DNA from: Candidatus Poribacteria bacterium
GTDB lineage: Bacteria > Poribacteria > WGA-4E > PCPOR2b
NCBI GenBank assembly: GCA_022822785.1
Contig: JAJEAL010000011.1
Span: forward strand, 1-40,961
Direction: 5' to 3'
Length of the DNA stretch: 40,961 nt
This document shows, in pieces, positions 24,841-28,465 of the stretch (its first letter is position 1; each line of letters begins with the position of its first letter). Both the position numbers and the translations under genes were made by a program. The notes under the pieces are model-generated. The model searched no databases. It saw nothing but the letters and a program-made list of their open reading frames with translations, and was not told the origin of the DNA.

Positions 24841-25020
24841 CCAGCGGTCAACCATCGGATGCGTGTCGATATTTGTCGCAGCAATTTTCCGAACTTTGAC
24901 ATCAATCGCACCACGGACAAACCGCATGATAGACAGTGGCGCATGACGGAAAATATCGTCTATCACGAGATGAACCACGCTTCCTGTATCGTGCTACCCA
25001 TATACCCACTTGATTCTTAA
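24841..25020 (+). pseudogene. 3' remnant of a CocE/NonD (X-Pro dipeptidyl-peptidase-like) hydrolase gene, copy A
   Basis: The frame encodes a typical C-terminal end of CocE/NonD hydrolases: HRMRVDICRSNFPNFDINR, then WRMTENIVYHEMNHASCIVL and PIYPLDS, stopping at 25018-25020. Nothing upstream encodes the catalytic alpha/beta-hydrolase part, so only about 60 codons remain. Its stop overlaps a minus-strand FIST remnant in the palindrome CTTAAG. A second, diverged remnant of the same end lies at 28275-28430, on the far side of the accessory island. Confidence 0.65.
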
Positions 25021-25055
25021 GTCTCGGAACAGAGGACAAGTGCCCCTGTGTAGGC
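24926..25055 (+). repeat. 130-bp imperfect direct repeat, left copy
   Basis: Aligns without gaps to 28336-28465 with 23 mismatches by my count (about 82% identity). It contains a 23-bp identical block (24971-24993) and a 47-bp block with one mismatch (25009-25055) across the convergent stops. Mismatches elsewhere are often synonymous in the CocE frame. Confidence 0.85.
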
Positions 25056-25162: not shown

Positions 25163-25171
25163 ACCAAAATG

Positions 25172-25246
25172 GTCAAGAAAACAGAAAACTAAACACCCCT
25201 ATTTCCCATCTGTTTTCTTGACTGTTTTTGCTAAATGTGTTATATT
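25172..25246 (+). promoter_or_regulatory. Promoter with a 13-bp inverted repeat overlapping the -35 box
   Basis: GTCAAGAAAACAG (25172-25184) and its exact reverse complement (25210-25222) flank a 25-nt centre. The right arm contains the -35 TTGACT (25218-25223), followed by 17 bp and TATATT (25241-25246). This looks like an operator that could repress the island operon. The hairpin followed by TGTTTTTG could alternatively be a weak terminator. Confidence 0.6.
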
Positions 25247-25270
25247 TTCGCAGTTGATGGGGAGGCTAAC

Positions 25271-25343
25271 AGGGACAGCACATAGAGCTCACAAGTTGAT
25301 TGACTTTATAAGGGACGTTTTTATAATGATCTTTACTGTCCCT
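25271..25343 (+). promoter_or_regulatory. Second promoter of the island flanked by AGGGAC repeats
   Basis: TTGACT (25300-25305), 16 bp, TATAAT (25322-25327). AGGGACAG (25271-25278) and its reverse complement CTGTCCCT (25336-25343) flank it, and a third AGGGAC lies in the spacer (25311-25316). A short leader of about 100 nt leads to the first island gene. Confidence 0.5.
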
Positions 25344-25438
25344 TACCTATGACCACTATCCGCAGACAATGGCAAACGATTCTGATAAACCTTAAAGGCA
25401 ATTCTTTATGGCCCCTACAGTTTATAGCGAGGTAGTAT

Positions 25439-25825
25439 ATGGGATGTGTCTATATCTTGAAAAATGAAGCAATGCCGGATTTAATAAAAATCGGCTATAC
25501 AGCAAAAGCTGCCGAAGAACGAGCAGATGAACTTTATACAACGGGGGTCCCAATGCCCTTTGAAGTAGCACACCAGTACCCTTGTGAAGATCCACAGAAA
25601 CTTGAACGCGAAATCCATAGGAAACTTACATCTCACCGTATTAACCAGTATCGAGAGTTTTTTAAGTATCCGGCGGATGATGCGTTCCAACTGCTCCAAG
25701 AACTTCACCAAATTAGCAGCTCCGTCTGGTGGCGAAAATGGACATCACATTTTTTAACGCGCTTCAGAAGAAAGATCGATACGAGAGCAGATATAGTTGA
25801 GAGCGAAATGCCAACGCCTCAATAG
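25439..25825 (+). CDS. T5orf172 (GIY-YIG superfamily) nuclease-like protein
   Basis: The 128-residue product begins with the T5orf172 pattern MGCVYILKNE, then DLIKIGYTAKAAEERADEL. It continues with PFEVAHQYPCEDPQKLEREI, HRKL and REFFKYPADDAFQLLQEL. This family belongs to the GIY-YIG fold, found as nucleases or DNA-binding modules in phage and defence genes. GAGG precedes the ATG. First gene of a tight three-gene operon; the next begins 11 bp after its stop. No extra DNA-binding domain; the C-terminal tail is basic. Enzymatic activity is not certain. Confidence 0.75.
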   Translation: MGCVYILKNEAMPDLIKIGYTAKAAEERADELYTTGVPMPFEVAHQYPCEDPQKLEREIHRKLTSHRINQYREFFKYPADDAFQLLQELHQISSSVWWRKWTSHFLTRFRRKIDTRADIVESEMPTPQ

Positions 25826-25836
25826 GAGAAAGCTCA

Positions 25837-27375
25837 ATGAATGATGGACATGGAAATGGAGTGAACCCGAGCTTGAACGGTAGACCTTACCATAGCGCTG
25901 ACAACGGATTTGCTTGTGCAGCAGCAGGCAGAGGGGTCACAGAAGCATTGCAAGAACACCTCAATGTAATTATCCGTAATGAGGAATTAGAAATAGAAAG
26001 AAGTCATTCACAGATTCAAGCAGACATAAAGGCCTTGGTTGAGGATAAGGAACGACTTGAAGAACGGAAACTCGATTTGCAAGACAACATTAAGACCTTG
26101 GCCGAAGAACACTCTGCGAAAGAGGTGAAGCTTTCTGAATTAACAACAGAATTGGAAGCACCCGTAACACCTGATTCGGCTCCACCAGACCCGCGTGTTG
26201 AGGCGTTGAAAAGTGAAATTGATGAGAATACTTCAGCATTAGAAGAAAAGCAGGTCGCCCGCGTTAAGATCGAAACCGATCTAGAGGCACCAACAGAGGT
26301 CGAATTAAAACCGCCGTCTGTTGACAAAGCTCCAGTTTCACGATTTTCCGCTCTTGATAAGGGCTTCGCAGGTTTAACCGCCTTCGTTCTTGTGGGGCTA
26401 GTTTTCTACCTCTTCATCTTTTATGCTTCAGTAGGAGATAGAACTTTCACAGAAGGCATCGGAACTAACCTCGAAAAGCAACATATTATTATTCCTCATG
26501 CTTTATCCAAGGCGTGGGAATCATCACCCAAAAATTGGTTCGTCCTCACGTTCCCTTTTATTTTTCTAACGCTTGCAATTATCTTCTACTTTTTTGACGA
26601 ACACTCAGAAAACAAGTGGTCTAAGTTCTGGGTACTTGGACCTACTCTGCTAATCGATAGTGTAATTGCAGTCAAGATCTCACAACAGATGCATGAGTTT
26701 AAGGAAGGAATGGAAACAAAATATGTATGGAGCGAAAATTGGATAGAAATCTTATCCGTTCTCCTTTTAGGTTTCGGAGTTTCACTACTTCTAGGTTATG
26801 GTTTGTCTTGGGTTATGAGGGTGTGGAATAGAGGAAAACAACCCCAAGGCGAACCAGAACAATTAGAAAGGCTAAAAAGAGTAGAACAGAACAACCGCTG
26901 GGTTGAACTAGCCGCTTTAACCCAAGAAATACAACACTTGCAGAACAGAATTGACGGTCTAAAGCAAGAGAGAGAAACTTGCGAAAGAGGTATTGAGGAG
27001 GCTTCCAAGCAGCAGCTAGACGCACACTCTGAAGCCCACAAGCACCCAATTCAGGTAGAAATTGCCCGCCTGAATGCCGAAAAAGAAAACCTGCAAAACC
27101 AGATTGCTGAATGCAATGAGCAGGTTGAAAGTATTCAAAAGGAAATAAATCAGTGTGAAGCTGAAATCGAGGCTCTGTTAAAGCGTCAACGCGAAAGGGT
27201 CATTGATGTAAAGAAGTTGGAAGCACAGGCAAACGAGTTCGTGAGTGGCTGGTGTCGATATGTAGCCCAGAGTAAAACCCAGTTACCTGCTGATATCACG
27301 ACCCAAATTAAAGATATTCAGCACCTAGCACATGAGACACTTGAAACATACAAAGTATCTCTCGCAACAGTCTAA
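25837..27375 (+). CDS. Four-TM membrane protein with two long coiled coils, unknown family
   Basis: The 512-residue protein has coiled coil 1 at about residues 45-150 (rich in E, K, L with heptads), TM segments near 177-199, 235-253, 264-280 and 303-325, then coiled coil 2 at about 340-465. With an even number of TM segments both coiled coils lie on the same side, probably the cytoplasm. No peptidoglycan-binding, MotA or ATPase motif is visible. GGAGAAAGCTCA precedes the ATG. It sits between the GIY-YIG-like and vWA-like genes with 11-bp gaps on both sides, so the three are probably one functional unit. I do not recognise the family. Confidence 0.7.
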   Translation: MNDGHGNGVNPSLNGRPYHSADNGFACAAAGRGVTEALQEHLNVIIRNEELEIERSHSQIQADIKALVEDKERLEERKLDLQDNIKTLAEEHSAKEVKLSELTTELEAPVTPDSAPPDPRVEALKSEIDENTSALEEKQVARVKIETDLEAPTEVELKPPSVDKAPVSRFSALDKGFAGLTAFVLVGLVFYLFIFYASVGDRTFTEGIGTNLEKQHIIIPHALSKAWESSPKNWFVLTFPFIFLTLAIIFYFFDEHSENKWSKFWVLGPTLLIDSVIAVKISQQMHEFKEGMETKYVWSENWIEILSVLLLGFGVSLLLGYGLSWVMRVWNRGKQPQGEPEQLERLKRVEQNNRWVELAALTQEIQHLQNRIDGLKQERETCERGIEEASKQQLDAHSEAHKHPIQVEIARLNAEKENLQNQIAECNEQVESIQKEINQCEAEIEALLKRQRERVIDVKKLEAQANEFVSGWCRYVAQSKTQLPADITTQIKDIQHLAHETLETYKVSLATV

Positions 27376-27386
27376 GGAATTTTTAT

Positions 27387-28274
27387 ATGAGAAAAATGAA
27401 AATTTTTGTAGTTGTGTGCGCAGTATTTTTTTCCCTCTTAAACGCAAACAAATTGGACGGACAAGAATCAGCTTCGCTTAATGTCTTAAATATCATTGTA
27501 ATCCTTGACACATCAGACCGAACGACGCATCCCAACCAAATAAGAAGGGACATCGAAATTGTGAGAGGTATTGTTACCGAGTTTGAAAAGGTTGTTAGGG
27601 GTCATATTAACAATTCTGTCAATCTTGAGTATAAAGATTCTCTCGCTGTTGTTGTCCCAGAACAGCCGTCAGTGCCTCCAATTCCATGGGCGATTATGGA
27701 GAAACTCACAATTGAGGATCCAGGAGAACATAGGAGCCTTGAAGGTAGTTCCGGTATCTTTACTGATTTGGAAAAACAGATACAGGTATTACTTGATGAA
27801 ATGCCTAAACTATACAAATTTGTCGAGCAACACGAGCAACCTGGGTCTGACATTTGGAGTTGGTTCAAATATGAAGCCGAGGATTATTTCTCAAGCGATC
27901 ATCAGAACCTTATTATCTGCCTTTCCGATGGCTACCTTTATTTTGACCGAAACATTGAAGGGAGACGTCTCCCAGGCACATACATGCAGGTCCGCAAATT
28001 ACGCGATGATCCGAACTGGCAACAGAGAATACACGACAGTGAAGGCTTATCCTCAATCGGAAAAGATTTTAGCCCTTTCAATGTGAAATTCCTCATGGGT
28101 GAAATCACACTTCAAGATGATAGCTCCGGTATTCCTTATCAACAAGACTTTGATATTATCAAAGAATATTGGGGAACATGGTTAAATTCAATGGGAATTC
28201 AGCATATCGACTTCAGGAGACGTCTTTCGCTACAAAGGATTAAATCTTTTATTTCCGGGGAGGACGGACCATGA
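27387..28274 (+). CDS. Secreted vWA-like protein with degenerate MIDAS
   Basis: The 295-residue product has an N-terminal signal peptide (KIFVVVCAVFFSLLNA). A vWA-like fold is suggested by LNIIVILDTSDRT (D41; the usual DxSxS reads D-T-S-D-R) and by NLIICLSDGYLYFD. The metal site is therefore incomplete. No lipobox or C-terminal anchor is visible, so it is probably periplasmic. Last gene of the island operon. Its stop is directly followed by the right-hand CocE remnant. Function unknown; it may sense or bind an envelope partner of the coiled-coil membrane protein. Confidence 0.65.
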   Translation: MRKMKIFVVVCAVFFSLLNANKLDGQESASLNVLNIIVILDTSDRTTHPNQIRRDIEIVRGIVTEFEKVVRGHINNSVNLEYKDSLAVVVPEQPSVPPIPWAIMEKLTIEDPGEHRSLEGSSGIFTDLEKQIQVLLDEMPKLYKFVEQHEQPGSDIWSWFKYEAEDYFSSDHQNLIICLSDGYLYFDRNIEGRRLPGTYMQVRKLRDDPNWQQRIHDSEGLSSIGKDFSPFNVKFLMGEITLQDDSSGIPYQQDFDIIKEYWGTWLNSMGIQHIDFRRRLSLQRIKSFISGEDGP

Positions 28275-28430
28275 ATAAACTCTACTCCAGCGACCCTCCC
28301 GAAATTCTACGCGACTCGTAACACCGGCGATCCAAATGATAGGCGATGGCATATCGCTGAAAACACCATCTACCATGAACTGAACCACGCTTCCTGTATC
28401 GTGTTGCCTACGCACCCGCTTGATTCTTAA
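28275..28430 (+). pseudogene. 3' remnant of a CocE/NonD hydrolase gene, copy B
   Basis: Starting right after the vWA-like stop, the frame reads LPKFYATRNTGDPNDRRW, then HIAENTIYHELNHASCIVL and PTHPLDS to a stop at 28428-28430, the C-terminal end of a CocE/NonD hydrolase. The upstream hydrolase part is missing and replaced by the island operon. The stop overlaps the FIST stop on the other strand. Confidence 0.65.
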
Positions 28431-28465
28431 GTCTCGGAACAGAGGACAAGTGCTCCTGTGTAGGC
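28336..28465 (+). repeat. 130-bp imperfect direct repeat, right copy
   Basis: Partner of 24926-25055 (gap-free alignment, offset 3410 bp). Here the right part lies within the 3' end of the intact FIST gene. Confidence 0.85.

Follow-up and report, generated by a model that had tools for sequence, protein, structure and literature searches.

The window analyzed here, a complete contig of 40,961 nt from Candidatus Poribacteria, carries a cassette of three plus-strand open reading frames (ORFs) of 128, 512, and 295 aa, separated by 11-nt gaps. They encode a GIY-YIG nuclease domain protein (gene 1), a membrane scaffold (gene 2), and an exported protein with a vWA fold (gene 3). On balance, we lean toward the view that this trio is a horizontally moving defense cassette, which would block incoming DNA at the inner membrane. 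The co-occurrence of genes 2 and 3, their fusions, the swapping of nucleases, the patchy distribution, a displaced resident gene, and the placement of relatives among cas genes support such an entry barrier. The three genes are located as follows:

25439..25825, plus strand: gene 1, 128-aa GIY-YIG (T5orf172/MUG113) nuclease domain protein (Pfam, PADLOC, motif alignment)
25837..27375, plus strand: gene 2, 512-aa membrane scaffold with an N-terminal coiled coil, about four transmembrane (TM) helices, and a C-terminal coiled coil (hydropathy, family alignment, AlphaFold2)
27387..28274, plus strand: gene 3, 295-aa exported vWA-fold protein with a degenerate metal-ion-dependent adhesion site (MIDAS; DxSxR) (hydropathy, AlphaFold2, alignment)

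Exchangeable nucleases on a common scaffold

Gene 1 matched the Pfam families MUG113 (E=5.3e-17) and T5orf172 (E=4.8e-16) with 62.6 and 59.5 bits, as compared to cut-offs of 22.3 and 20, respectively. The GIY-YIG motif residues VYI, KIG, R, and REFF are retained in 17 of 17 aligned copies, and motif residues are also retained in the PD-(D/E)XK-type domains described below; we take the retained residues of both motifs to be catalytic. When gene 1 was searched against the sequences of solved structures, only a chance-level match was returned.

To date, our set comprises the neighborhoods of 24 Poribacterial gene 2/gene 3 loci, including the window; two further gene 2 copies (G036:C27 and G044:C307) end at contig edges. 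The nuclease slot of these loci is filled by a GIY-YIG domain in 17 cases and by a PD-(D/E)XK-type domain (HSDR_N_2) in five, with two loci untyped. In 11 loci (the window, L024–L026, and L028–L034), gene 2 is immediately preceded by a separate GIY-YIG gene, while six loci (L035–L038, L041, L045) have the GIY-YIG domain fused to the gene 2 N-terminus. In the remaining typed loci (L023, L027, L040, L042, L044), HSDR_N_2 itself forms the N-terminus of gene 2, with E-values between 6.5e-10 and 6e-9 in four and of 3.8e-5, just under the Pfam cut-off, in L044. One untyped locus, L043, is cut by the contig end and the other, L039, is interrupted: at L039:9600–12500 (G060:C65), gene 2 is broken by an apparent IS3-type insertion (transposase recognized by eye from its ORF), with gene 3 intact and a weak GIY-YIG remnant upstream.

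The exchange of nucleases is illustrated by L036 (GIY-YIG) and L040 (PD-(D/E)XK), whose scaffolds are 68.9% and gene 3 products 81.6% identical, yet whose nuclease domains are unrelated. Mapped onto a gene 3 tree of 26 rows, nuclease type changes four times—at least three of these changes being forced by well-supported branches—and a single change accounts for the separate versus fused state. Moreover, versions with different nucleases share chromosomal sites, as judged by eye from the N-termini of neighboring genes: L027 and L040 (PD-(D/E)XK) occupy the same site as L037 (GIY-YIG), and L026 (GIY-YIG) the same site as L044 (PD-(D/E)XK). The window's own genome holds one copy of each nuclease type.

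These arrangements bear on a rival explanation, namely abortive infection, in which the complex would sense envelope damage and a released or activated nuclease would destroy host DNA or RNA and thereby stop the cell. The anatomy would be equal, and 11 of the 24 loci encode the nuclease as a small protein of its own, which might be set free. A precedent comes from Zorya, for which population-wide immunity via damage to host chromosomal DNA, with ZorE as a nickase, has been described (PMC11890865). However, another 11 Poribacterial loci join a nuclease domain of one type or the other to the membrane protein, which favors tethered action, and we consider abortive infection unlikely.

Predicted topology of the scaffold and the vWA protein

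Hydropathy places TM segments of the window's gene 2 product at approximately residues 182–200, 235–253, and 305–323; a further segment near 264–282 passes the threshold only in homologs. The AlphaFold2 model is all-helical (mean predicted local distance difference test [pLDDT] score, 74; predicted template modeling [pTM] score, 0.37), and the family alignment revealed a conserved F-V-x-G-W-C-R-Y segment in the C-terminal coiled coil. Gene 2 contains no domain above the cut-offs of the family libraries, and a fold search with its low-confidence model returned coiled-coil rods only. Weak matches to SMC, Rad50, LmuB, and JetC were set aside as coiled-coil matches.

The gene 3 product starts with a hydrophobic segment, as seen by hydropathy, and its AlphaFold2 model (pLDDT 88.8, pTM 0.85) adopts a vWA fold: the best VIA match reached a Z of 12.2 with a root-mean-square deviation of 3.1 over 173 residues, and the VIA matches include proteasome, TFIIH, COPII, and integrin I-domain chains. 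The canonical MIDAS motif reads DxSxS. In the gene 3 alignment, it is altered to DxSxR throughout the family, with D181 retained and the T152 of homologs replaced by P in the window copy. A strict pattern flagged a lipobox-like Cys after the signal segment in L027, L029, L040, L042, and L044, and inspection by eye added L036–L039; the window copy has none. Gene 3 has no Pfam match and nothing above family-library cut-offs, and a sequence search of solved structures found no relative of it. A second candidate for an extracytoplasmic vWA protein is present beside the GIY-YIG cassette of L034, where an apparently truncated lipoprotein gene upstream (L034:11960–12290) has, by eye, a DASAS-type vWA-like start.

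The same parts—membrane, nuclease, and periplasmic—would also fit an apparatus for DNA uptake or processing, with the membrane nuclease and the periplasmic vWA protein importing or trimming transforming DNA. The top Foldseek match of the gene 3 model, the pilus adhesin SpaC (E=5.5e-4), points in this direction, though vWA domains serve many roles. Patchy distribution, nuclease swapping, and placement among cas genes would be odd for such a machine, however, and we regard it as highly improbable.

A preliminary description of this DNA, made from the sequence alone, had proposed three genes with 11-bp gaps, a GIY-YIG-like nuclease, a coiled-coil/four-TM/coiled-coil protein, and an exported vWA-like protein with a degenerate metal site, which together span cytoplasm, membrane, and periplasm. 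Our data agree on each point: ORFs and gaps were recovered, both Pfam matches of gene 1 exceed curated cut-offs, hydropathy, alignment, and AlphaFold2 support the layout of gene 2 (its fourth TM segment being above threshold in homologs only), gene 3 is modeled as a vWA fold with DxSxR family-wide, and the three-compartment layout is supported. From the fusions and hydropathy, the nuclease is predicted to reside at the inner membrane and to act in the cytoplasm.

Patchy distribution and displacement of a resident gene

Within a sample of 97 genomes (84 of the window's phylum and 13 others), gene 3 was detected in 25: full-length or long in 22 members of the phylum, as fragments in two (G030, and G068 at a contig end), and in G090 of another phylum. 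The gene 2 profile identified 23 of the 97, namely the same 22 Poribacteria plus G090. Genes 2 and 3 are thus patchy, occurring in 22 of the 84 genomes of the phylum, and they are neighbors wherever the fetched contigs permit. Their homologs, which had been expected to recur together in other genomes, do so: gene 3 is present in 23 of 23 gene 2 genomes.

In the window, the cassette is flanked by a direct repeat of 167 nt (77% identity; 24889–25055 and 28299–28465) that corresponds to the 3′ end of a hydrolase gene:

24845..25055, plus strand: left remnant, 3′ end of a Peptidase_S15/PepX_C hydrolase gene (congener comparison, direct repeat)
28316..28465, plus strand: right remnant, second copy of the hydrolase 3′ end (congener comparison, direct repeat)

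Four of five congeners (G002–G005) possess an intact 610-aa gene and no trio at this position, between genes for a phytanoyl-CoA dioxygenase and a FIST protein; the G003 copy matches Peptidase_S15 and PepX_C in Pfam. Those congeners that carry a trio or pair (G002, G003, G004) have it at other sites. An S15-type hydrolase gene has therefore given way to the cassette, and the 3′ end of that gene now lies on both sides, in line with the duplicated gene remnants and the mobile cargo of the preliminary description. No integrase or transposase gene was seen between the repeats; our guess is that the cassette moved via homologous recombination at the repeated hydrolase 3′ end. In the fifth congener, G001 (L088:12180–12490), the hydrolase gene is gone without a cassette, and ~75–110 nt resembling its 3′ end are left. 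At another locus, in G004, an IS605 OrfB/TnpB-type gene (L041:17515–18633) lies directly downstream of the trio.

Relatives among cas genes

Outside Poribacteria, we found two relatives, both among cas genes, in a search that covered Bacteroidota poorly and not systematically. The first, on plasmid pSP2_2 of Runella sp. SP2, is a 704-aa protein with the locus tag DTQ70_RS30435 in which genes 2 and 3 are fused, in the order coiled coil, four membrane segments, coiled coil, fifth membrane segment, and vWA domain. Its second coiled coil has a similar GW-R-Y segment, and the fifth membrane segment, preceding the vWA domain, takes the place of the signal-like segment of gene 3. The gene is part of a type III-B locus (cmr1, cas10, cmr3–cmr6, csx2) with a CARF-RelE protein, and 30 nt separate it from the CAPP type B, cas2, and cas1 genes that follow. 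CAPP type B is described as belonging predominantly to type III operons and almost exclusively to Bacteroidetes (PMC8211822). The Runella locus (L072:9016–18350) also contains Csx20, a WYL regulator, a further Csx1-like CARF gene, and, beside the CAPP-cas2-cas1 operon, a PDC-M16B/TOTE S1-CSD gene. In the second relative, G090, homologs of genes 2 and 3 follow genes for Cas6 and Cas_APE2256 (CARF-RelE-like) on a 4.3-kb contig that is too short for a CRISPR type call. That two of two relatives sit among cas genes is striking, albeit from a small sample.

Further searches extended this picture little. Plasmid records contained the Runella relative only. No further full relative was found in 147 genomes around G090, 39 genomes of the phylum of G090, or 392 genomes around G174, nor in 386 genomes around the window, where one weak match (8.5e-5) occurred in G083. 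As a marker for Bacteroidota, TIGR04183 was not discriminating, and G178 is the sole sampled genome of its phylum.

Given this context, the family might have originated as a type III CRISPR membrane effector or adaptation aid that was later freed, its nuclease domains being secondary in Poribacteria. Cam1 and Csx23 are reportedly type III CRISPR effectors that act through the membrane. Both outside relatives have cas genes around them, CARF proteins nearby, and no nuclease domain, and the Runella gene immediately precedes an adaptation operon, which speaks for such an origin. Yet no CARF or cyclic-oligoadenylate sensor domain was detected in genes 2 and 3 or in the two distant relatives, Cas_APE2256 does not co-occur with the cassette in Poribacteria, and the argument hangs on two loci that sit on long branches of the gene 3 tree; we judge this origin distinctly unlikely. 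A dependence of the Poribacterial copies on type III CRISPR was likewise considered and dropped, the test with PF09651 (Cas_APE2256) being unsupportive.

A proposed barrier to DNA entry

With gene 1 and gene 2 fused in Poribacteria, and gene 2 and gene 3 in Runella, the simplest picture is that the three proteins would form one complex. Gene 2 would provide a scaffold in the membrane whose long coiled coils extend into the cytoplasm. On the cytoplasmic face it would hold the nuclease, which is gene 1 or, elsewhere, its own N-terminal domain; the vWA protein would be attached on the periplasmic face. There, the vWA domain might bind a part of the phage injection machinery, a different device for DNA transfer, or an envelope that has been disturbed. 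This contact would bring the nuclease to the entering DNA, while the membrane tether would keep it off the chromosome. A membrane-held nuclease with an outside contact would fit a DNA-entry barrier, and SNIPE, discussed below, demonstrates that a design of this type is workable. The defense role put forward in the preliminary description is made likely by nuclease swapping and by the CRISPR-linked relatives.

Several observations weigh against an entry barrier of this kind. The vWA metal site of gene 3 is degenerate, and no relative was found in viral contigs or phage records. The Runella and G090 relatives have no recognized nuclease domain, which renders their testimony on the nuclease-bearing form indirect; they also match no PADLOC or NCBIfam family beyond coiled-coil matches. 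Within the phylum, PF09651 occurs in 6 of 23 genomes that have gene 3 and in 16 of 61 that lack it (Fisher p=1). Lastly, the flanks of the Poribacterial copies gave scattered defense matches and no clear defense islands, in a scan that had no random-window control: among 101 of 107 flank ORFs, the matches were TmtA, the specificity subunit of a type I system, three helicases resembling PbeA, and a few others. (The six ORFs omitted were five near-repeats of the L039/L040 flanks and one from the L044 cassette; five loci lay outside the scan.) Enrichment near defense genes, which the preliminary description had named as a check, was not shown.

The scarcity of neighboring defense genes would also suit an operon for envelope maintenance or signaling that is unrelated to foreign DNA, its nuclease acting on host RNA or in regulation. 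Such a housekeeping role is hard to reconcile with the displacement of a resident gene, with CRISPR linkage elsewhere, and with two unrelated nuclease folds in one slot whose motif residues are retained, and it appears hardly probable at all.

Flanking genes and control region

In the Poribacterial flanks, no cas genes were seen, either by eye on N-termini or with PADLOC, and a lone Cas12f-type PADLOC match fits the IS605-type transposase gene of L041. In the window's genome, upstream of the PD-(D/E)XK version, L023:8089–8703 encodes a TPR protein that carries an MTES_1575/DUF559 restriction-endonuclease-like domain; next to it are two short genes without a known family. At L034, the gene for a type I restriction specificity subunit (Methylase_S; L034:7258–7905) is <3 kb from the cassette. 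In L027, L037, L039, and L040, gene 3 is followed by a helicase-like gene and then, by eye, a DUF790-like gene; this site hosts GIY-YIG or PD-(D/E)XK versions, and three flank ORFs match PADLOC PbeA.

Upstream of gene 1, the window contains the following candidate control elements:

25166..25228, no strand assigned: inverted repeat 5′ of gene 1 with 20-nt arms and a 23-nt spacer, possible operator (repeat search)
25218..25246, plus strand: promoter-like site TTGACT-17-TATATT (consensus match only)
25300..25327, plus strand: promoter-like site TTGACT-16-TATAAT (consensus match only)

The arms of the inverted repeat (25166–25185 and 25209–25228) match at 90% and overlap the first promoter-like site. 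While the operator-like promoters of the preliminary description exist in this sense, six promoter-like sites were found versus 5.1 expected in shuffles, so their number does not exceed chance. Other loci mostly resemble the window at the DNA level only from ~17 nt before gene 1 onward, indicating that the control region is not a conserved part of the cassette; L041 alone is similar from 25369, and the operator was rejected as a conserved element.

Comparison with known systems

A close conceptual parallel is SNIPE, a GIY-YIG nuclease described as bound to the membrane and as cutting the DNA of phages while they inject it; its TM-less form is toxic (PMC13190303). Like SNIPE, the trio would anchor a GIY-YIG nuclease at the membrane. 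In PADLOC, the PD-Lambda-1 models recognize gene 1 at E=3e-9 and give a weak match to the coiled coil of gene 2 (E=6.1e-4). As described, however, SNIPE is a single protein combining DUF4041 with a C-terminal nuclease, in a homolog set with no, one, or two TM segments (PMC13190303), whereas in the trio the nuclease is separate or N-terminal, about four TM segments are present, the partner is a periplasmic vWA protein, and PD-(D/E)XK is an alternative nuclease. DUF4041 is absent from the 17 Pfam families (E up to 1) obtained for window gene 2 and is not among the 25 of 33 Pfam families listed for 17 gene 2 homologs.

Zorya (ZorA/ZorB plus ZorC/ZorD or ZorE), according to its descriptions, is built on a membrane core that includes a periplasmic part and takes up more than one kind of nuclease module (PMC11890865, PMC12904381). 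It thus resembles the trio in its inner-membrane complex with a long cytoplasmic tail, its periplasmic part, and the varied nuclease modules on one core. In contrast to Zorya, gene 2 has no MotA/ExbB domain and gene 3 no OmpA-type domain (Pfam, E up to 1); on the periplasmic side there is a vWA protein instead, and the cassette has no helicase. Judged by these sequence tests, the trio is a member of neither SNIPE nor Zorya.

More distant likenesses emerged by description. Kiwa (KwaA/KwaB) pairs a membrane-embedded sensor with a partner that acts on DNA where phages inject, as may hold for the trio; KwaB is reported to bind DNA without cleaving it (PMC12904381). A 2023 terascale survey describes vWA-related systems that lie near CRISPR loci together with transmembrane proteins, as well as transmembrane proteins and primase-polymerases tied to adaptation modules (PMC10910872). 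One of these groups may include the Runella locus, and the CRISPR-linked form may thus have been listed earlier without study. Compared by description only, those systems are given no GIY-YIG or PD-(D/E)XK partner, and, unlike the vWA-MoxR-VMAP ternary system as described (PMC10910872, PMC12839542), the conserved trio includes no MoxR AAA+ ATPase. The PADLOC candidate system PDC-S57 matches gene 1 through its best model over residues 2–91 (E=1.4e-32), with only ~90 of 212 model positions covered; beyond coiled-coil matches, PADLOC has no model for window genes 2 or 3.

The preliminary description knew of no described system with this composition. Following our library searches, this holds in part. 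Our searches of the open-licence literature turned up neither a description of the form with a nuclease nor a study of such a system in this sponge-symbiont phylum. Nevertheless, the idea of a membrane-tethered GIY-YIG nuclease acting against phages has been published as SNIPE (PMC13190303), and vWA and transmembrane genes near CRISPR loci already feature in the 2023 survey (PMC10910872).

Implications

As a tentative and somewhat doubtful extension, the trio may represent a scaffold family in which a core of four TM segments and a periplasmic vWA domain detects incoming DNA and works with interchangeable modules on the inner side—GIY-YIG or PD-(D/E)XK nucleases in Poribacteria, type III CRISPR adaptation or signaling in Bacteroidota and another phylum—so that DNA would, on entry at the membrane, be either cut or used as a source of spacers. 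Membrane-sited nucleases that meet entering phage DNA, such as SNIPE and Zorya, are a recent theme, to which the trio would add a scaffold that combines a periplasmic sensor-like part with interchangeable nucleases, in a sponge-symbiont phylum. If the CRISPR-linked relatives act alike, the site of DNA entry would be tied to type III CRISPR, and the capture of DNA at the membrane for immunity would become testable.

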